Of a stretch of DNA of 64,000 bases, positions 7,401 to 44,449 are shown piece by piece. Positions within the stretch are counted from its first letter, which is position 1, and the number at the start of each line of letters is the position of its first letter. The stretch spans positions 124,001 to 188,000 of the forward strand of contig JAEUHN010000009.1 in NCBI GenBank assembly GCA_016795365.1, in the 5' to 3' direction. The notes below the pieces were generated by a model, which saw only the letters and a list, made by a program, of their open reading frames with translations, made no database searches and was not told where the DNA came from. Position numbers and translations under genes: made by a program. Source of the DNA: Verrucomicrobiaceae bacterium. Lineage in GTDB: Bacteria; Verrucomicrobiota; Verrucomicrobiia; Verrucomicrobiales; Verrucomicrobiaceae.

Positions 7401-10400
7401 ACGCTGCGGCTGGCCTTGAAGTGCATCGCCGTGGCTGATGAACAGGCGGCCGAGGAACATCTGACGCAGCTGCTGGCCAAGACCAAGGCGCGCAACTCAC
7501 TCAAGGCTCTGCCTCCCGATCGCTGGCCCTTCCCGCTCACGGACGAGCGCAAGCCGGGACCCGCTGCTTCGCTCAAGGACATCGTGGAATTGCTTGAGGG
7601 CGCACGCGGCTTGGGCAAGGCGGAGATGGATCGCTTGCGCACCTTCCTGAGTTTTCCGCGCCCTGAATTTGCCGAGCTTCCAGATGATGTGTCGCTCGTG
7701 CGACTGCGTGGCATCGAGGAGATGGCGAAGCTCCAGCAACGTCACGGTGGCGACGGGCTCAGGCAGTGGATCGCGCAATGGCAGGCAGATGCCAAAGCGG
7801 TGCCGGTGGAGCGTTTGTGGGCACTGTTTTACGCGGGCGCGGAGGCTGAGTTCCGCGAGGCTTTGGCGGCGAGCATCGGTGAGAGCGAGTCCTTGGATCT
7901 CGAGTTTGTCTTTGCCTGGCTCACGGTGCGTGCTCGAGGCATGAGGGACGCTCTGACGTGGATGAAGGTGCCCAAGATCGGACGTGATCAACTCGCGTTG
8001 CGTCGCGATGTGATGCGGCTGGTAACGGGGATGCTCGCCGACTGGGAACACTTCCGCTACGACCCTCGGGAACTCGTGGTGCTGGGCAATGCGCGCCTGC
8101 TGCAAAATGCGGCCATCTTCGACATCATCCGTCGCCTCCAGGACCGGCAGCGCTACGCGGAGGCCATGTCGCTGGTGGACAGTCTGCGTCGCAGTTCGCC
8201 CGACCAATGGCGCAGCTATTCCTTCCTGCTCGCCAGCTATGCACAGTCCGCAGAGCTGTGGGATTTGCAGCGCCAGTATCTTCACGACGCGCTGGAGGGC
8301 TTGCCCGAGCCGGGGGCCTACACGGGCGAGGAGCAGGACTCGTTCTTGATGAGCGTGGTCGCCCTTCATCGTCTGGCACGCACGCCGCAGGAGCGCGAAG
8401 TCGTTTTGCAGAATGCCATGCGTCGCCTGCGCGAGTCGCCTCCGAGTGCGATGACAACCATGCGCGAGGCGGCCGTGGCCAGCCTTGCCGGAGCCGTGGT
8501 GCCTGCCGCCAAGTCCTTCGGCAGTTTTGCAGGAACGACGTTCCTGGGCGCGCGCCAGATCGCTGCGCCCATGGGCGGGCTCATGCCCCAAGGTTCGCCG
8601 CGCAACGAGGACACGAACTACTTCCGCAGCTACTGGGAGGACCTGCGCATGATCGGTGCCGTGCTCTCACAGCAGGGGCTGGGGCAGCTGGTGGCCGCCG
8701 TCGATAACTACCTGGACGAGTCGTTCGGCTCCGTGCAGCTCGGCCCGCGCACGAGTGACACGTTCAGCCTCTGGCGAAGCACGAAGCTTGTGCGCGAGCT
8801 GCGCGAGGTGAACTTCCCCACGCGAGTGCGCCTGATTCGTGAGTTCCTCGCCTCGGCGGACATGAAAGAGGAGGACGCCGTCGAAGCGTTGATCGAGCTG
8901 GGTCGCGAATTGGAGGTCAATGGCATGGTCCGCGAGTGCATCGAGGTTTACAAACAACTGCCTGGCCGCGCGCCATCGAACAATCTCTACGCCGAGTATT
9001 TCATCCGCGTGTGCGACCAAGCCTGGGAGCCAGAGCCCGGGCGCGCGTATGTGGAGAGCTTGTTCGGCAAAGACCCCGTGTATAAACCCCAAGGCATTGG
9101 CGATGAACGTCTGCGCGAGCACCACGCGCACTTCCTTGCCCAGCAACGAAATGCGGCTCGCCTGCGGGAGCTTGGCTGGAGGCCCGAAGGCTTCACTCGC
9201 GTGCTCGCAGGCCGTATCGCGCACGAGGTGCCGTATGCTCGCGAACTCGCACTGCTGCTGGAACACGACGGCGATACCAAAGGCGCGCTGGAAGCCTGGA
9301 ACCAGATGCACAAGGCCTTGATCAATGGCACACCCGACAGCCCCATGCCTGCCGATCCCGAGTGTGCACTGCATCGGGCGCGACTGATGGTGGAGCTGAA
9401 GTCGCCGCATACCGCCCTGCCGGTGCTGCGCGAGATTTTGCTCCGCGATGGTTTGGATGAAATCCGGCTCGCGGCGATGCAGTTGCGCGTGCAACTCGCC
9501 GCACAGGTCAACGAATGGAACGAGGTGCGCGAGCTGATGAGCGTGGCCGTGGACAAGAAGTCGCCCGAGCTGGCGCTGACCATCACCGAGGAGCTGCGCA
9601 AGGCAGCCCGCCACACCGAGGCGCTGAACTTCCTCACCCAAGCCGAGCGCGCGATGAAGGGCACCGAGGAGCGCTTCACGCTGCGCCTGGAACAGTTGCG
9701 ATTCTTTGCCCTCGATCCGACCTGGACGCCCAGCAAGGGCCGGGCCCAGGTGGCTGCCTTGTTCCGCACTGGCGGCCGCAGCCAGCAGACCATGAAGCGG
9801 ATGACGGACTGGCTGAGCCAGCAAAAGGATCACGCCCAGGACTGGCTGCCCGTGCTGCGAGCCGAGGCGCGCAGTGGCAGTGATCCTGCCATGGCTGCTC
9901 TGGCTCTGTGTGCGCTCTCAACTTCGTGGCCTGGCAGTGCCTTGCTCGACGAAGTGGTCTGGGCCTGGAATCGCGGTGAAGAAAAAGATCGTCCCTGCCT
10001 TCATCTCGCAGCGGACGTGCTGCTCAAGGCGGGGAAGCCTGAACATGCATCACGTGCCTGCGACGCCATGCGGGCAACGCCCTCGGGATTGCAATCCAGG
10101 CTGCTACCGATCGCGGTCCAGATCGCAGGTGCCTTGAAGGATGAGATGCGTCTGCGCGAACTCTATGCCGAGGTGGTCCGTATGCCTTTCCCTGGTGGCA
10201 CGATGACAAAGGACTGGGCCGAGGCGTTCGAATCAGCGGGGCACAAGGACTGGGCTCGCGAGCTGTTCTCCCTGGCCGCCGAACAGATGAGCAAGACCAA
10301 CAAACCCAACCCGGCGCTCACGCAATCGCAGATCGAGTTTCTCATCCGCCAGCATGACTTCGAAGCGGCGGAAACGCTGCTCATGCGCCACTACACCACG

Positions 10401-37605: not shown

Positions 37606-39324
37606 ATGCCTGACCTTTCCACCAAGTTTTCTCTTCCACGCGCTGCCTGGGTGCTCAAGCCCACGGCAACGCCTGCAAGTGGGACGGTGGCCGGGCGGCC
37701 TCTGGCTCCGCTCATCGCTCAACTCCTGGGGCAGCGTGGGCACCTGCATGAGGAGACGGTGCTCAACTTCCTCAATCCAAAGCTCGCTTCCCTCGGCGAT
37801 CCATTCGATCTGCCGGAGATGGAGCCCGCAGTGAAGCGCATCTTCGAGGCTGTGGATCGTCATGAGAACGTGGTGCTCTACGGCGACTACGATGTGGATG
37901 GCGTCACCTCGATGTCCATCATCCACCTCACGCTCAAGGCGTATGGACTCGATACCAAGCTCTTCCTCCCCCATCGCATGGAAGAAGGCTACGGCGTGAG
38001 CAAGGATGGCATCGCGCGCGTGTTCGAAGAGTTCGGCAAGCCGCACCTCATCCTCGCGCTCGATTGCGGCACCACGTCACTCGCCGAGATGGAATCGCTC
38101 GCACGTCACGGCGTCGATGTCGTGATCGTCGATCACCATGAGCTGTCCCCCGATGGCCGCCCCATCTGCAAGGCGCTGGTCAATCCCAAGCTCAGCGATC
38201 GCAATCACCACTTCTGCACCGCAGGCCTCGCCTTCAAGGTGGCCCATGCGCTGCTCAAGACGCGCAAGGTGGATGGCTTCGACCTCAAGGACATGCTCGA
38301 CCTCGTCGCCCTCGGCACCGTGGCGGACCTCGTTCCCCTCGTAGCCGAGAATCGCACGCTCGTGCGTCGCGGCCTGGAATTGATCGCCAATACCTCGCGG
38401 CCAGGGCTTCGTGCCTTGAAGGAAGTCGCCGGCCTTGATGGCTTCGTGCAGACGCATCACCTCGGCTTCCGCATTGGTCCCCGATTGAATGCAGCCGGTC
38501 GCCTCGATACCGCGCTCACTTCGCTCAATGTCCTGCTCGCCACCGATCACACCGATGCGATGTCTGGCGCGCAACTGCTCGATCAGCACAATCGCGAGCG
38601 CCAGGGCGTTGAGAATTTGGTTTTCAAAGAAGCCGAGGCCATGCTGCAAAACCTCGGCTCCCTCAACGACCTGCCCAGCATCGTGCTCGGCTCCCGCGAC
38701 TGGCATCCCGGCGTGGTCGGCATCGTCGCCTCCCGCATCTCCCGCATGTGCCATCGGCCCACCATCCTCATCGCCATCGACGATGAAGGCATGGGCAAGG
38801 GCAGCGGGCGCAGCATCCCCGGCATCAGCCTGGTGGAGGCCATCGAATCCTGCCGCCATCTCCTCACCAAGGGCGGTGGCCACGCCATGGCCATCGGGCT
38901 CTCCGTTCATGAGAGCAATATCGACGCCTTCCGCACCGCCTTCGCCGATGTGATACGCACCAAGCTCGAGTCCGGCAATCTGGTGCCCATCATGGATCTG
39001 GATGTCGAGCTGCGACTGCGCGACATGACCACCGACTTCCTGGAGCAGTTCAAGCTGCTCGAACCCTTCGGCCAGGCCAATCCCGAGCCCATCTTCCTCT
39101 GTCGCGGTGTGTCACCTCGATTGCCGGGTCGCGTGATGAAGGAGAAGCATCTCCGCGTCACCCTCATGCAAGACGGTGCCCAGCAAGACGCCATCTACTT
39201 CAACGCCCCCCTCAGCGAACTCCCGCCCCCGCCCTGGGACGTCGCCCTGCGTCTGCAACGCAACTGGTTCCGTGGCAACGAAAGCTGGCAGTTCACTATC
39301 GAAGGAATTCGGGCAGCGGAGTGA
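37606..39324 (+). CDS. recJ: Single-strand DNA exonuclease RecJ
   Basis: 572 residues. RecJ is a 5'-3' single-strand exonuclease in recombinational and mismatch repair. The DHH-phosphoesterase motifs are DYDVDG (94-99), ALDCGTTS, VIVDHHEL (DHH 176-178) and TVADLVPL. The DHHA1 domain has RIGPRLNAAGRLD, DWHPGVVGIVASRI, GSGRSIPG and GGHAMAIG. The C-terminal OB-like domain is present. The stop codon TGA (39322-39324) lies inside the first unit of the 21-bp tandem array, so loss of that TGA would extend the protein into the repeat until the next in-phase TGA, in unit 10. Confidence 0.95.
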   Translation: MPDLSTKFSLPRAAWVLKPTATPASGTVAGRPLAPLIAQLLGQRGHLHEETVLNFLNPKLASLGDPFDLPEMEPAVKRIFEAVDRHENVVLYGDYDVDGVTSMSIIHLTLKAYGLDTKLFLPHRMEEGYGVSKDGIARVFEEFGKPHLILALDCGTTSLAEMESLARHGVDVVIVDHHELSPDGRPICKALVNPKLSDRNHHFCTAGLAFKVAHALLKTRKVDGFDLKDMLDLVALGTVADLVPLVAENRTLVRRGLELIANTSRPGLRALKEVAGLDGFVQTHHLGFRIGPRLNAAGRLDTALTSLNVLLATDHTDAMSGAQLLDQHNRERQGVENLVFKEAEAMLQNLGSLNDLPSIVLGSRDWHPGVVGIVASRISRMCHRPTILIAIDDEGMGKGSGRSIPGISLVEAIESCRHLLTKGGGHAMAIGLSVHESNIDAFRTAFADVIRTKLESGNLVPIMDLDVELRLRDMTTDFLEQFKLLEPFGQANPEPIFLCRGVSPRLPGRVMKEKHLRVTLMQDGAQQDAIYFNAPLSELPPPPWDVALRLQRNWFRGNESWQFTIEGIRAAE

Positions 39325-39656
39325 TCTGGCGCGTGCGCCAAGTGGTCTGGCGCGTGCGCCAAGTGGTCTGGCGCGTGCGCCAAGCGGTCTGGCGCCTGCG
39401 CCAAGTGGTCTGGCGCGTGCGCCAAGTGGTCTGGCGTGTGCGCCAAGCGGTCTGGCGTGTGCGCCAAGCGGTCTGGCGCGTGCGCCAAGCGGTCTGGCGC
39501 GTGCGCCAAGTGATCGGGCGCGTGCGCCAAGTGATCTGGCGTGTGCGCCAAGCGGTCTGGCGCGTGCGCCAAGCGGTCTGGCGTGTGCACCAAGCGGTCT
39601 GGCGTGTGCACCAAGCGGTCTGGCGTGTGCGCCAAGTGATCTGGCGCGTGCGCCAA
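39321..39656. repeat. Sixteen-unit 21-bp tandem array, each unit palindromic
   Basis: Sixteen contiguous 21-bp units fill the space between recJ and purQ, which converge on it. Each unit is a 14-base palindrome (TGGCGCGTGCGCCA, arms of 6 around GT) plus a 7-base linker (A-G-T/C-G-G/A-T-C). Variation sits at fixed positions: T or C and G or A in the linker, and a C-to-T change in the left arm (units 6, 7, 11, 13-15). Units 13 and 14 are identical and carry the rarer GCACCA arm. Because 21 is a multiple of 3, long spurious reading frames cross it. Possible roles are bidirectional transcription end, protein-binding array or minisatellite. There are no spacers, so it is not CRISPR. Confidence 0.95.
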
Positions 39657-39679
39657 GTAGCACCCCACAACCCGGATGA

Positions 39680-40390
39680 TTACCCCGCCATCGCGTCGCG
39701 CACGGACTTGAACATGTAGTAGCCCCAGCCGCGTTCGGCTTGGCTCCAGTCAGGATCGTAGTGGGTGACCTTGTTCACGAAACGCTCGGGGTGCGGCATG
39801 AGGCCGAACACGCGGCCGGTGTCGTCTTGCAGGCCGGCGATGCGTTGGCTGCTGCCGTTGACATCCTCGGTGTAAAGCAAGGCGGCGCGGCCGTTCGCCA
39901 CGTAGTTCGCTGTGTCGTCACCCACGCCCATGAAGCGGCCTTCGGCGTGCGCGATCGGCAGCTCGAACTCATCCGGCAGCTCACTCAGGTAAGGGCTGGA
40001 GGCGTTCTTCTTGAGGCCTGCCCAGCGGCAGATGAAGCGTCCGCTTTCGTTGTGAATCAGAGAGCCACGCGGCAGGAGGTCGAGCTGCGTGAGGATTTGG
40101 AAGCCATTGCAAATGCCCATGGCATAGCCACCCTTGTCCACGAACTGGCGGAGCTTGTCGCCTAGCTTGTGCTTGGTGATGAGCTGAGCGATGCGGCCAG
40201 ACATCACGTAGTCGCCATAGCTGAAGCCACCGGCGAAGAGAATCATCTGCGCGGTGTCGAGCTTGCCGGGCTCGAGCAGGGCGATGGGCAGCACCTCGGC
40301 GCTGAAGCCTGCGACCTTGAGCGCACGGGCCGTTTCAGCATCGCAGTTGGTGCCAGGGAATTTGAGGATGAGGGCGTGTGGTAGAGGCAT
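39680..40390 (-). CDS. purQ: Phosphoribosylformylglycinamidine synthase, glutaminase subunit PurQ
   Basis: 236 residues. The class I glutamine amidotransferase supplies ammonia to PurL in the fourth step of purine synthesis. The nucleophile C94 lies in MGICNGFQ, the oxyanion region is LFAGGFSYGDY, and the His-Glu pair is in LMPHPERF. The ATG at 40390 is preferred to a TTG at 40396. It lies 9 bases downstream of purL and ends 23 bases from the tandem array. Confidence 0.95.
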   Translation of the reverse strand: MPLPHALILKFPGTNCDAETARALKVAGFSAEVLPIALLEPGKLDTAQMILFAGGFSYGDYVMSGRIAQLITKHKLGDKLRQFVDKGGYAMGICNGFQILTQLDLLPRGSLIHNESGRFICRWAGLKKNASSPYLSELPDEFELPIAHAEGRFMGVGDDTANYVANGRAALLYTEDVNGSSQRIAGLQDDTGRVFGLMPHPERFVNKVTHYDPDWSQAERGWGYYMFKSVRDAMAG

Positions 40391-40399
40391 GGGCAATGA

Positions 40400-42808
40400 T
40401 CAATAATACTCGGTGAGTCCGGTCTGCCAGATGGGCTTCAGTTCTTTGATCGGCAGATGGACGAGCTGCTGGTCCTGATTCGTGATGGTGAGGAATCCGT
40501 CGTCCGTGGTCTGGCCGATGATCGTGAAGCCAGCTTCCTCGGCGAGGTGGGCGTGCTTGTCATCGATCTCGAAAACGATGCGCCCCGGGGTTTCGCCGAA
40601 GAGGTGCTCAGCGACGGGAGTGCTGTCGAGCGTGGGCACTAGTGACAGATCTACATGGAGGCCTGCCTTGCCGCTGAAGCCCATCTCTGCCAGTGCCACC
40701 GCGAGACCGCCTTCGCTCACGTCGTGGGCGCTGAGGACCACGCCGCGTTTGACGAGTTCATGATAGCGCTCGTAGGCCTCGAAGGCTTCCGCTTCGCTGA
40801 ACTGGGGCGCATTGGGGAAGCCCACTTCATCGCGGGCGTTTTTCACGATCATGCGGGCGAAGACGCTGCCCGCGAGCCCGCTCGATGCCTGACCGACCAT
40901 GGCGAGCTTGCTGCCTGTCCTGCGAATGCTGGCACCGACCACGTGCTCCTTCTTTTCCACCACTCCGAAACCACTGACGAGGAGCGTGCAGGGGATGCTG
41001 ATGGGGCCTTCATCGGTCTTGAAGTAGTTGTAGAACGAGTCCTTGCCGCTGACGAATGGAGCGCCGTAGGCTTCGGCGGTGATGGCCATGCCCTTCACGG
41101 TTTCGACCAGGGCACCGAGTTCGGTGTGGTCATCGGGATTGCCCATGCAGAAGTTGTCCAGGATCGCGATGCGCTCAGGATTGGCACCCATGGCGATGAG
41201 CTGACGCACGCATTCATCCACACAGGCCCGGCCCATGAGATGAGGCTGAGTCTTGCCCCACTCGGGCAGCAGAGCGACGGACAGGGCCGCGTATTGTTGC
41301 GTGCCTTCCACACGAATGACGGACCCGTCCTGAGGAGCGTCACCGCTGGCTCCGGCGAGGGGCTTGAGCACGGTGTGGCCCTGCACTTCGTGGTCGTATT
41401 CACGGATGATGGGCTCGCGCGAAACGATGGCAAAATCAGCCATCAGCATCTTGAGCAATTCATTGCCTACCTCGACTTCCTCGAAGGGAATGTAGGTGTC
41501 CTCGCCGCGTTTCGGCGTGGTCCATGTCGCCGTCATGTGACGGCGTGGGGCCTCGTGCAGCTTCGAGTTGTCCAGGCGGCACACGACTTCGCCGTGGTGC
41601 ATCACCTTGAGAATGCCGGTGCCATCGGCCTTGCCCAGCTTGCAGATTTCCGTCTCGTAGATGTCGGCCAGCTTTTGCAGTTCGGGCATCGCGCTTTCTT
41701 CGACGGCGATCACCATGCGCTCCTGGGACTCGCTGATGAAGACCTGCCAGCTCTCGAGGTCGGGAGCCTTGAGCGGTGCATTCTCCAGCCACACTTCGCC
41801 GCCCACGGTGCTGAGCATTTCGCCCGCCGCGCTGCTGAAGCCACCGGCTCCGCAGTCGGTCACGAACTGGATGAGTCCTTTCTCGCGCGCGGCGAGGATG
41901 AAGTCGGCCACCTTCTTTTCCTCGATCGGATTGCCGATCTGCACGGCGGTCTGATCTTCCTCATGACTGCTCGTGGTGAGGGACACGCTGGAGAAGGTGG
42001 CACCCTTCAGGCCATCCTTGCCCGTGCGTCCACCGGCAGCGATCAAGAGGTGACCAGGCTTCACTTCCTTTTCGATGTCCTTGATCGGAATCACGCCCAT
42101 CGTGCCGCAGAACACGAGCGGGTTGTAGATGTAGGTGTCGTCGAACTGGATCGCTCCGCTCGTCGTGGGAATGCCCATGCGGTTGCCATAGTCGCGCACG
42201 CCGCGCACCACACCGCGCATGATGCCGAGCGGATGGATGACGTCCTTGGCTTTGATGTCTTCCTGACGCGTGTCGGGCGGGCCGAAGCAGAAAACGTCGA
42301 GCGAGGCGATGGGCTTCGCGCCCTTGCCCGCACCCAGGATGTCGCGGATCACACCACCGAGTCCGGTGTTCGCTCCTGCATAAGGTTCGATGGCGCTCGG
42401 ATGATTGTGGGTCTCCGCCTTGAGGCAAATCGCAGTCTGATCATCCACCTTCACGAAGCCTGCATTATCCACGAACGCGCTGAGCACGAAGCCCGGCTTC
42501 TTGTCCATGATGCGATGCGTGACGTTGCGGATGTAGGTCTTGAACAAACCGTCCACGACCTCCTTTTTGCCATCCAGCGTGTGCTCGATCTTCGCACCGA
42601 AGATGCGGTGCTTGCAGTGCTCGCTCCAGGTCTGGGCGATCACCTCGAGTTCCACGTCGGTAGGCTCGCGGTTCTCCTCCTTGAACATGGCCTGGATGAC
42701 CAGCATGTCCTCGCGGGAAAGGCTGAGCTTGTGCTTCTTGCTCAGATCGAGCAGTTCATCGGCGCTGAGCGGCGTGATGGGGATGTGGCGGAAGACGGCT
42801 TTGGACAT
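40400..42808 (-). CDS. purL: Phosphoribosylformylglycinamidine synthase, synthetase subunit PurL
   Basis: 802 residues, somewhat longer than the usual small PurL (~740). It contains the FGAR-AT linker (DELLDLSKKHKLSLSREDMLVIQ, then TDVELEVIAQTWSEHCKHRIF), the ATP and substrate site (KAETHNHPSAIEPYAGANTGLGGVIRDILG) and a second AIRS-type half (SAHDVSEGGLAVALAEMGFSG). It converts FGAR to FGAM using ammonia from PurQ. It follows the PurS-like gene by 24 bases, so the three-subunit enzyme is encoded as one operon. Confidence 0.96.
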   Translation of the reverse strand: MSKAVFRHIPITPLSADELLDLSKKHKLSLSREDMLVIQAMFKEENREPTDVELEVIAQTWSEHCKHRIFGAKIEHTLDGKKEVVDGLFKTYIRNVTHRIMDKKPGFVLSAFVDNAGFVKVDDQTAICLKAETHNHPSAIEPYAGANTGLGGVIRDILGAGKGAKPIASLDVFCFGPPDTRQEDIKAKDVIHPLGIMRGVVRGVRDYGNRMGIPTTSGAIQFDDTYIYNPLVFCGTMGVIPIKDIEKEVKPGHLLIAAGGRTGKDGLKGATFSSVSLTTSSHEEDQTAVQIGNPIEEKKVADFILAAREKGLIQFVTDCGAGGFSSAAGEMLSTVGGEVWLENAPLKAPDLESWQVFISESQERMVIAVEESAMPELQKLADIYETEICKLGKADGTGILKVMHHGEVVCRLDNSKLHEAPRRHMTATWTTPKRGEDTYIPFEEVEVGNELLKMLMADFAIVSREPIIREYDHEVQGHTVLKPLAGASGDAPQDGSVIRVEGTQQYAALSVALLPEWGKTQPHLMGRACVDECVRQLIAMGANPERIAILDNFCMGNPDDHTELGALVETVKGMAITAEAYGAPFVSGKDSFYNYFKTDEGPISIPCTLLVSGFGVVEKKEHVVGASIRRTGSKLAMVGQASSGLAGSVFARMIVKNARDEVGFPNAPQFSEAEAFEAYERYHELVKRGVVLSAHDVSEGGLAVALAEMGFSGKAGLHVDLSLVPTLDSTPVAEHLFGETPGRIVFEIDDKHAHLAEEAGFTIIGQTTDDGFLTITNQDQQLVHLPIKELKPIWQTGLTEYY

Positions 42809-42832
42809 TGATCGTGATGGGGAAAAAGGAAA

Positions 42833-43279
42833 TTAAGCCGCGCGCAGGACCTCGTGGGTGTGGATGGCCGGATTGACCACGTCGCGAACGAACTGCTCGG
42901 GTTCCGCCTCCTTGCCGAAGACGTAGATGCGTTTGCGCAGCGTGAGCTTGGTGATCGTGAAACCCGGGTTGGACAGCGTGCGGTAGTAGGTGAGGATCAT
43001 CTCCTTCTCCAAATCCAGCGCCGCGCCCTTCATGCCGTATTCGAGGACAAAGGCCGCCTTGGGAAACAGCAGTGCGCCGCCCTCGTGCGCGTCCTGGCTG
43101 ATCGGATCGACGAGCACTTTCTGCACAAAGGCCTTCATCGCCTCCGCATCGCCGTCGAACTCAACCTTGTAGCACTGCGTCTCGCGATATTTCAGCGGCT
43201 TGGTCAGCGGATTATAGAGCAGCTTGTGGCAGTCGCTCTCGGTGTCGAACTTGCCGGTGATTTCGAAGGTGGTGGTCAT
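42833..43279 (-). CDS. PurS-like protein, apparently two PurS units in one chain
   Basis: 148 residues, about twice the size of PurS (~80). The second half (FVLEYGMKGAALDLEKEM, ITKLTLRKRIYVFG, FVRDVVNPAIHTHEV) follows the PurS pattern of strand, helix, K-x-I-x-V strand and N-P-x-I end. The first half (CYKVEFDG, AFVQKVLVDPISQDA) repeats the later part of it. PurS is the dimeric bridging subunit of the PurSLQ enzyme. In large PurL the N-terminal domain resembles a PurS dimer, and this protein has the size of that domain as a separate chain. It stands first in the operon with purL and purQ. Assignment rests on this comparison and on context, not on a search. Confidence 0.65.
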   Translation of the reverse strand: MTTTFEITGKFDTESDCHKLLYNPLTKPLKYRETQCYKVEFDGDAEAMKAFVQKVLVDPISQDAHEGGALLFPKAAFVLEYGMKGAALDLEKEMILTYYRTLSNPGFTITKLTLRKRIYVFGKEAEPEQFVRDVVNPAIHTHEVLRAA

Positions 43280-43330
43280 GCGCTTGCCCCTGCTACTAGG
43301 AGTGCGCAGGCGGTGTGGCAAGCGGTTTGA

Positions 43331-44449
43331 TCACACCGTGATCCTTCGATTCCGCGCCGTGATGGGCCAGCGATCGACGACTTGCATATTGTCGATGATC
43401 AGGGCCTCGCCGTGCATGGAGACGCTGGGGCAGACGTGGCGGGGGATGCCGTGGAGGGCCTGGCCGATGAGGAAGCGTTCGCGCTGATCGACCTTCATGA
43501 CGAGGTGCTCCTCGCTTTGCATGAGGAATTCGGCCTCGGGAATCTCCTCGAAGCGGACGCGCGGGTGCGGGTTCTCGGGGGCGACGGATTTGTGGCCGAG
43601 ATCGACGGTGATCCGATCGGTGCCAGGCTTGCTGACCACGCGGGTGAGCAGCACGGCGGCGGGCTGGAAAGGCAAATCGTCGAGCTTGTCGCCGTAACCG
43701 AAGTCCCACAGCACGGTCGTTCCAGGGCTGAGCGTGCGATCAGCGTGCTGCGCATGGATGCCAAACGTGGGCGAGCCACCGGCGACGAGTTCCTTCACGA
43801 TGAGGCCTTCGCCTTGCAGTTCCTTTTTGAATTCGAGGATCGGCGCGAACGCTTCATCGCAAAGCCGACGGCGCGTCTCCAGATCGGCGTCGTGGATGTG
43901 TCCATCGTAGGCGTGAAGGCCTGCGAGGCCGAGGCGGGGCGTTTCTTTGATCACCTTGGCCAGCATCTTGGCCTGGAAGCCGGGGACGATGCCGGTTCGG
44001 GACATGCCGCAGTCGAGTTCGAGGAAGACGGGAATATTGACCCGGTGCTGCTGAGCCGCTGCCGCGATGTGGCGGATGGTTTCCTCATCGTCGGCGATGG
44101 TGGAAAAGCGCACGTTGGGAAACTTCGCCGCCAGCTCGGCCAGACGATGCGCATTGGCACCCACGGCTGGCATGGCCAGCATGATGTCCGTGCCGCCTGC
44201 ATCGGCGGTCATTTCCACCTCGGCCACGGTGGAGCACTTGAACTTCGTGATGCCCAGCTCCACCTGGCGCTGGATGAGCTGGCCGCACTTGTGCGTCTTC
44301 ACATGCGGGCGCAACCGCTCGGGACCGCCTGCGATCTGAAGCATGAGCTGCAGGTTGTGCTCGATGCGTTCGCGATAAAACAGCAGCGCCGGAGTGGCGA
44401 TCTCGGCTTCGTTTTCGATGTGGAACCAGGCGAATTCGGGGGAGTTCAT
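43331..44449 (-). CDS. PLP-dependent D-threonine aldolase / D-serine dehydratase family protein
   Basis: 372 residues, fold type III PLP enzyme with an alanine-racemase-like barrel. The PLP Lys is K51 in LRPHVKTHKC. LELDCGMSRTG, GLHAYDGHIHD and VAGGSPTFGIH are the family glycine and phosphate-binding regions. Near the C-terminus the metal site reads H338-V-C340. In this family H-x-C is seen in zinc-dependent D-serine dehydratases and H-x-D in D-threonine aldolases, so D-serine dehydratase-type chemistry is slightly favoured. Start ATG 44449. Downstream of ridA on the same strand; RidA proteins remove the enamine/imine products of such dehydratases, which supports the pairing. Confidence 0.82.
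   Translation of the reverse strand: MNSPEFAWFHIENEAEIATPALLFYRERIEHNLQLMLQIAGGPERLRPHVKTHKCGQLIQRQVELGITKFKCSTVAEVEMTADAGGTDIMLAMPAVGANAHRLAELAAKFPNVRFSTIADDEETIRHIAAAAQQHRVNIPVFLELDCGMSRTGIVPGFQAKMLAKVIKETPRLGLAGLHAYDGHIHDADLETRRRLCDEAFAPILEFKKELQGEGLIVKELVAGGSPTFGIHAQHADRTLSPGTTVLWDFGYGDKLDDLPFQPAAVLLTRVVSKPGTDRITVDLGHKSVAPENPHPRVRFEEIPEAEFLMQSEEHLVMKVDQRERFLIGQALHGIPRHVCPSVSMHGEALIIDNMQVVDRWPITARNRRITV

Follow-up and report, generated by a model that had tools for sequence, protein, structure and literature searches.

A free-standing double PurS encoded upstream of purL and purQ in Verrucomicrobiota, a candidate single-chain subunit of FGAR amidotransferase

It is well established that the PurS dimer and the N-terminal domain of large PurL resemble each other. 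In its canonical form (PF02700; T. maritima TM1244, 1vq3/3d54; B. subtilis, 1twj), PurS is a single-domain protein of about 80 residues that forms a homodimer, and its gene is placed next to purL and purQ. In large PurL, the N-terminal domain (PF18076; Salmonella, 1t3t; human, 9nb3) has a double PurS layout and shares its chain with the synthetase and the glutaminase. Some methanogens encode an ‘mdPurL’ which, in the relevant part of PMC3261824, is described as carrying about 200 extra N-terminal residues, usually in genomes with no purS; its layout is similar to that of the fused tandem PurS-PurL proteins considered below. In a passage of PMC3815217, two PurS sequences are joined on paper for alignments. 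The relevant passages of PMC11804010 name a ‘PurS’ of Akkermansia muciniphila as partner of PurQ and PurL, and do not describe its size or a double nature. Searches of the open-licence literature for double, tandem or Akkermansia PurS brought up no account of a double PurS that stands alone.

Here we analyse a 148-residue protein, termed dPurS, that is encoded in a window of 64,000 nucleotides (the whole stretch of DNA examined, positions 124,001 to 188,000 of contig JAEUHN010000009.1, assembly GCA_016795365.1) from a Verrucomicrobiaceae bacterium. Like canonical PurS, it is encoded beside purL and purQ, and each of its halves is predicted to have the same fold; unlike canonical PurS, it consists of two fused, unequal halves that are predicted to form a single-chain unit, and it has no sequence match to PF02700. 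With the N-terminal domain of large PurL it shares the double PurS layout and a predicted fold that matches over the whole length (133-142 residues), but it is the product of a separate gene with its own stop. A third comparison is with mid-size PurLs, the nearest relatives of the PurL encoded here, which have two PurS repeats and profile homology in common with dPurS; in those proteins, however, the tandem PurS is joined to PurL and is in many cases recognised by PF02700, whereas dPurS is unrecognised, ends in TAA, and is followed by a PurL with its own ATG. We conclude, with a probability of about 0.93, that dPurS is a tandem PurS, a single-chain pseudo-dimer that fills the role of PurS in an FGAR amidotransferase of three chains, together with PurL and PurQ. 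The basis for this conclusion in the data is the anatomy of the protein, the prediction of its fold, its homology to fused PurS-PurS modules, and its strict co-occurrence with one type of PurL. As a variant of a known subunit dPurS is well supported, and its free-standing double form is new. The A. muciniphila ‘PurS’, as far as the passages of PMC11804010 describe it, is probably a protein of the same type.

The dPurS gene and its operon

The first-pass annotation of this DNA had placed the gene at 42833 to 43279, as the first before purL and purQ and about double the size of purS. All of this is correct, and the strand, which had been left unstated, is minus: the frame opens with an ATG at 43279 and runs through 148 codons to a TAA that is included in the interval. 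The plus strand of the same interval is also stop-free, and was rejected as the complement of the real gene. The operon order, on one strand, is dPurS, purL, purQ. A gap of 24 bases (42809 to 42832), which in the window leaves dPurS and purL in the same frame, a relation not conserved in relatives, is followed by purL (40400 to 42808, minus strand, ATG at 42808). This gene encodes a small-type FGAM synthetase of 802 residues (TIGR01736, 546 bits, above the cut-off of 525.75) with linker and AIRS domains in Pfam. The purQ glutaminase gene (39680 to 40390, minus strand; TIGR01737, 178.5 bits, above the cut-off of 177.8) more likely starts at the ATG at 40390 than at the listed TTG at 40396, two codons earlier. 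PurL and PurQ are single-copy in the window's genome, both at this locus.

An FGAR-AT linker segment, noted earlier as a trait shared with large PurL, is present in the PurL of the window (Pfam, E 3.1e-16), which has no N-terminal PurS domain. The linker is not diagnostic, however, and gives no clue to large-PurL kinship, because both canonical small PurLs scanned also have it. PurL frames of 1042-1062 residues in three genomes, and of 1050 residues in the window's genome, had suggested a PurL-PurQ fusion; this was ruled out by three fetched loci that show separate ORFs and by the TGA that separates purL from purQ in the window. Near the operon start, scanning 39300-43700 for promoters and terminators yielded nothing beyond the level of shuffles. 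Past purQ, an array of a 21-base unit (39320-39658; 16.1 copies, 93% matches) fills the space between the purQ end at 39680 and the end, at 39324, of a convergent ORF that we take to be recJ-like; long frames on both strands stay open across the array.

Within dPurS, the first PurS-like half, delimited by its own model and structural matches, spans residues 1-72 (43064 to 43279, minus strand), with the first helix predicted as a short turn. The second, delimited by the alignment of PurS structures to the model and by invariant columns, spans residues 74-148 (42836 to 43060, minus strand). The halves close with VLVDPIS and VVNPAIH, the D-P-I and N-P-A-I endings that had been described for them, and the key residues of both are conserved in an alignment of 43 homologues (the window, copies from 12 of the 20 other genomes of the phylum, and 30 of 50 loci from a wider collection): D58 and N136 do not vary, and conservation is 90% or more at I60, A138 and I139. 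Twenty columns of the alignment are invariant, seven of them between K84 and I95 in half 2, where a conserved loop and helix start (K84-x3-L88-x-L90-E-K-E-x-I95) precedes the N-P-A-I end. The dPurS genes of the window and of locus L022, the closest relative, differ with a dN of 0.021 and a dS of 0.19 (pN 0.02, pS 0.169), and the gene is under purifying selection. Together with the 50 homologous loci and the gene's presence in 21 of the 194 phylum genomes, these rates mark dPurS as more than a chance frame.

Fold and relatives of the two halves

The dPurS of the window had no meaningful match in Pfam or NCBIfam and returned nothing useful from PDB sequences, where a profile of the 43 homologues likewise found nothing. 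In a Pfam scan, none of the 43 members matched PurS (PF02700) at E <= 10, and PF18076 (FGAR-AT_N) was not among the 13 families that they did match; PF18076 matches two large PurLs of the phylum at 1.4e-25 or better. The AlphaFold model of dPurS (mean pLDDT 94.2, pTM 0.87) placed 17 large-PurL chains on top in Foldseek, with weak E-values of which the best was 1.6e-3. In VIA-align, the 19 best rows were all N-terminal domains of large PurL, matched over model residues 1-145; human large PurL 9nb3 aligned at 142 residues (Z 11.5, 3.3 A) and Salmonella 1t3t at 133 (Z 9.5, 3.3 A). Seven PurS entries came after large PurL, their alignment covering residues 74-148 at Z 4.4-5.2, and unrelated structures began at Z 3.6. 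When half 1 was modelled alone (pLDDT 83.6, pTM 0.63), the same seven PurS entries ranked first, at Z 5.1-6.1, and the next row stood at 3.3.

A structural match to PurS is thus present in both halves, and in the predicted models each half of dPurS is a PurS fold. The first is modelled as a reduced one: it is without a helix of at least four residues between strands one and two, the position taken in half 2 by a helix at residues 90-101, and by this comparison most of one PurS helix has been lost. The models give good support to a double PurS fold of the whole protein, like that of the large-PurL N-terminal domain, and the proposal of the first-pass annotation that a stand-alone double PurS would be the unfused form of that domain agrees with the 19 best structural matches and with those of each half to PurS.

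The link to PurS by sequence runs through fused proteins. PF02700 matches inside PurL frames of about 984-1091 residues elsewhere in the phylum, twice each in seven genomes, and mid-size PurLs, defined by a frame length of 984-1199 residues, occur in 81 of 194 phylum genomes. From the N-terminal parts of 39 mid-size PurL loci we extracted a profile of the fused tandem PurS module, whose two repeats match each other with a probability of 96.7 and which matches the canonical PurS profile at 94.5. dPurS matched the fused tandem profile over columns 31-148 with a probability of 92.9 and a score of 46.8, which none of 100 column shuffles reached (best 22.0). The direct comparisons to which the first-pass annotation had looked gave no such signal: the probability was 3.3 against the canonical PurS profile (12 phylum sequences; 1 of 100 shuffles as high, not significant) and 0.2 against a 13-row profile of the large-PurL N-terminal domain, with 17 of 60 shuffles as high.

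At the level of single halves, no resemblance remains by profile between half 1 and half 2 (probability 0.8). Half 1 matched the first fused repeat at 77.8, and half 2 matched the first fused repeat at 76.2 and the second at 38.2, so that sequence gives no one-to-one pairing between the halves of dPurS and the fused repeats. Against three large PurLs that are TIGR01857-type or similar (L219 and L224, the two scanned, both over the TIGR01857 cut-off, and L225), dPurS gave a probability of 0.4, with 14 of 60 shuffles as high, and the fused tandem module gave 83.5, with none of 60 as high. The fused module reached 1.4 against the 13-row set (2 of 60 shuffles as high). That set includes one TIGR01857-type row, L185, which is the same gene as L219, and a high score between the two large-PurL sets is therefore partly a self-comparison. 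Judged from the sequences, the relevant fused partner of dPurS is the mid-size PurL of about 990 residues. Pfam finds two PurS stretches in two of the three fused PurLs scanned. The deepest fused lineage (L125 / L218, genome G095) has a PurS-PurS-PurL frame of 1078 residues whose PurS repeats Pfam fails to recognise, and Pfam-based counts of fused PurS are consequently too low.

Distribution and origin of the double PurS

A scan of collected bacterial and archaeal genomes gave 50 loci with dPurS homologues, of which L071 is partial, and a plasmid search returned nothing useful. The protein occurs in 21 of 194 phylum genomes and in 32 of 387 genomes of a wider draw; the genomes are related, and these counts are hence non-independent. 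Its range covers two families of one order, to which we take the genus Akkermansia to belong, plus one genome, G121, from another class. The G121 locus (L217) is the sole dPurS operon found outside the window's order, with none in the other 56 genomes of that class; early vertical survival and transfer are both possible.

The 21 phylum genomes with dPurS are exactly those whose PurL is 59-100% identical to that of the window, the next best PurL being at 43%; dPurS accompanies this PurL type in 21 of 21 cases and occurs in none of the 173 other genomes. In each of the 11 additional genomes with dPurS, PurL is small and separate, as judged by position in the large-PurL profile and confirmed at the ORF level in three. 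In one family of the window's order, dPurS is present in some genera and absent from 14 genomes, of which 13 encode a one-chain PurL of 1242-1288 residues and the remaining one (G030) has neither PurL nor dPurS; the pattern of replacement is clean. G030 is one of four genomes (with G068, G090 and G104) that are 93-100% complete and have no PurL match at E <= 1e-10, an apparent loss, judged by these searches, of this step of purine synthesis. Linkage of dPurS to purL was seen in 35 of 70 loci examined; the 35 unlinked loci often show no purL in the 4.5 kb downstream, and some end at a flank or contig edge. In two genomes (G187 and G190) dPurS lies on the same contig as purL but about 271 kb and 123 kb away, and it is still kept. 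This persistence without linkage argues for a function and against mere hitch-hiking.

For the origin of dPurS we relied on a mixture-model tree built from 31 of 97 PurLs, in which the dPurS-type, fused, canonical and large PurLs each form one clade. Support was 100/99 for the dPurS type, 100/100 for the fused type, and 96/86 for the two as sisters; the dPurS-type rows are not nested within the fused clade, and the deepest of them is G121. A 26-row tree with the three TIGR01857-type or similar rows added again gave one clade each for the dPurS and fused types, with the branching among these two and the added long-branch rows supported by 56/6 alone. A quick tree of 48 of the 97 rows, kept after removal of close copies, in which L185 and L173 are long rows, is given no weight.

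We give an even chance to the history in which PurS was first duplicated and fused into dPurS, and was joined to purL later in sister lineages, so that the window keeps a relic of the middle step. The sister relationship of the two monophyletic PurL types is in its favour, as is the position of the deepest dPurS row in another class, and by our count it needs two events from a separate PurS against three for fission. On the other side, the topology alone leaves the direction unset and half 1 of dPurS appears, in the models, to be itself derived; beyond the phylum, the search for the trait consisted of the collection scan with the window protein and of the plasmid search. Fission, in which a fused PurS-PurS-PurL of the common ancestor was split into two genes in the dPurS lineage, is a serious competitor that we hold tentatively, at somewhat under one half. 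It would fit the fused-size form being far commoner among the phylum genomes sampled (81 of 194 against 21), and at 11 of the 35 linked loci a single stop codon alone stands between dPurS and an in-frame purL; the dPurS rows lie outside the fused clade, however, and the frames of the two genes agree in 12 of the 35 linked loci, the third expected by chance. The ‘possible intermediate’ of the first-pass annotation is therefore plausible, the sister clades fitting a split ancestor, but a later fission fits them too.

Since the split-first history requires one event fewer, we lean slightly towards it. Under the split-first history, dPurS would be a living middle step from a homodimeric subunit, by way of a covalent pseudo-dimer with unequal halves, to a domain joined to purL later in sister lineages, a reading whose odds we place just short of even. 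The reduced half 1 suggests a cousin of the ancestral middle step rather than that step. If the middle-step reading is true, one phylum, Verrucomicrobiota, encodes PurS as a single separate protein, double PurS in both separate and fused form, and fully fused large PurL. With at least four layouts of one enzyme, the phylum is well suited to working out in what order duplication and fusion took place. Both histories concern origin, and both are compatible with function as a PurS subunit.

Proposed role of dPurS in FGAR amidotransferase

dPurS is the sole PurS candidate in its genomes. As had been expected from the first-pass annotation, no canonical PurS appears elsewhere in the window's genome, which is 97.2% complete and has no PF02700 match at E <= 10, in a search that gave matches in 12 of 14 control genomes; PF02700 exceeds its cut-off in none of 32 dPurS genomes (best E 0.027). 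PurM is above its cut-off in the window's genome, and matches to purF are below theirs. The two PurS-fold halves in one chain would form the dimer that canonical PurS builds from two chains, and dPurS, as one chain, would bridge the synthetase PurL and the glutaminase PurQ, a bridging that would let ammonia from glutamine reach FGAR. Complex formation, a 1:1:1 stoichiometry and the bridging role are here carried over by analogy from PurS and large PurL. Weighing against the proposal are the lack of a sequence match made directly to PurS, the vanished profile resemblance between the halves, the reduced half 1 of the model and the weak Foldseek E-values. Such a protein would be a natural case of a two-copy subunit turned into a single chain, one way toward a built-in enzyme domain, and its free-standing form allows a direct test of a single-chain pseudo-dimer working in trans. 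It accounts for the apparent absence of PurS in Prosthecobacter-type genomes and would supply annotation pipelines with a new family model.

Ferredoxin-like folds are common and no named family matches dPurS, so it is conceivable that an unrelated ferredoxin-like regulator lies upstream of purL by chance. We consider this improbable: the large-PurL and PurS rows stand clear of unrelated structures, both for the whole protein (Z of at least 4.4 against at most 3.6) and for half 1 (at least 5.1 against at most 3.3), dPurS co-occurs strictly with its PurL type even when unlinked, and no other PurS was found in dPurS genomes. Read-through of the TAA into a fused protein, which the shared frame, single TAA and 24-base spacing in the window might suggest, is rejected as having next to no chance on the frame count across the 35 linked loci, since the frames differ in 23 of them, among these L022 with a dPurS 95% identical to that of the window, and the genes are far apart in other genomes.

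At one further locus, L035, a 75-residue frame (8743-8967) about 750 bases past the full purL matches PurL residues 732-802 and duplicates the 3' end of that gene.
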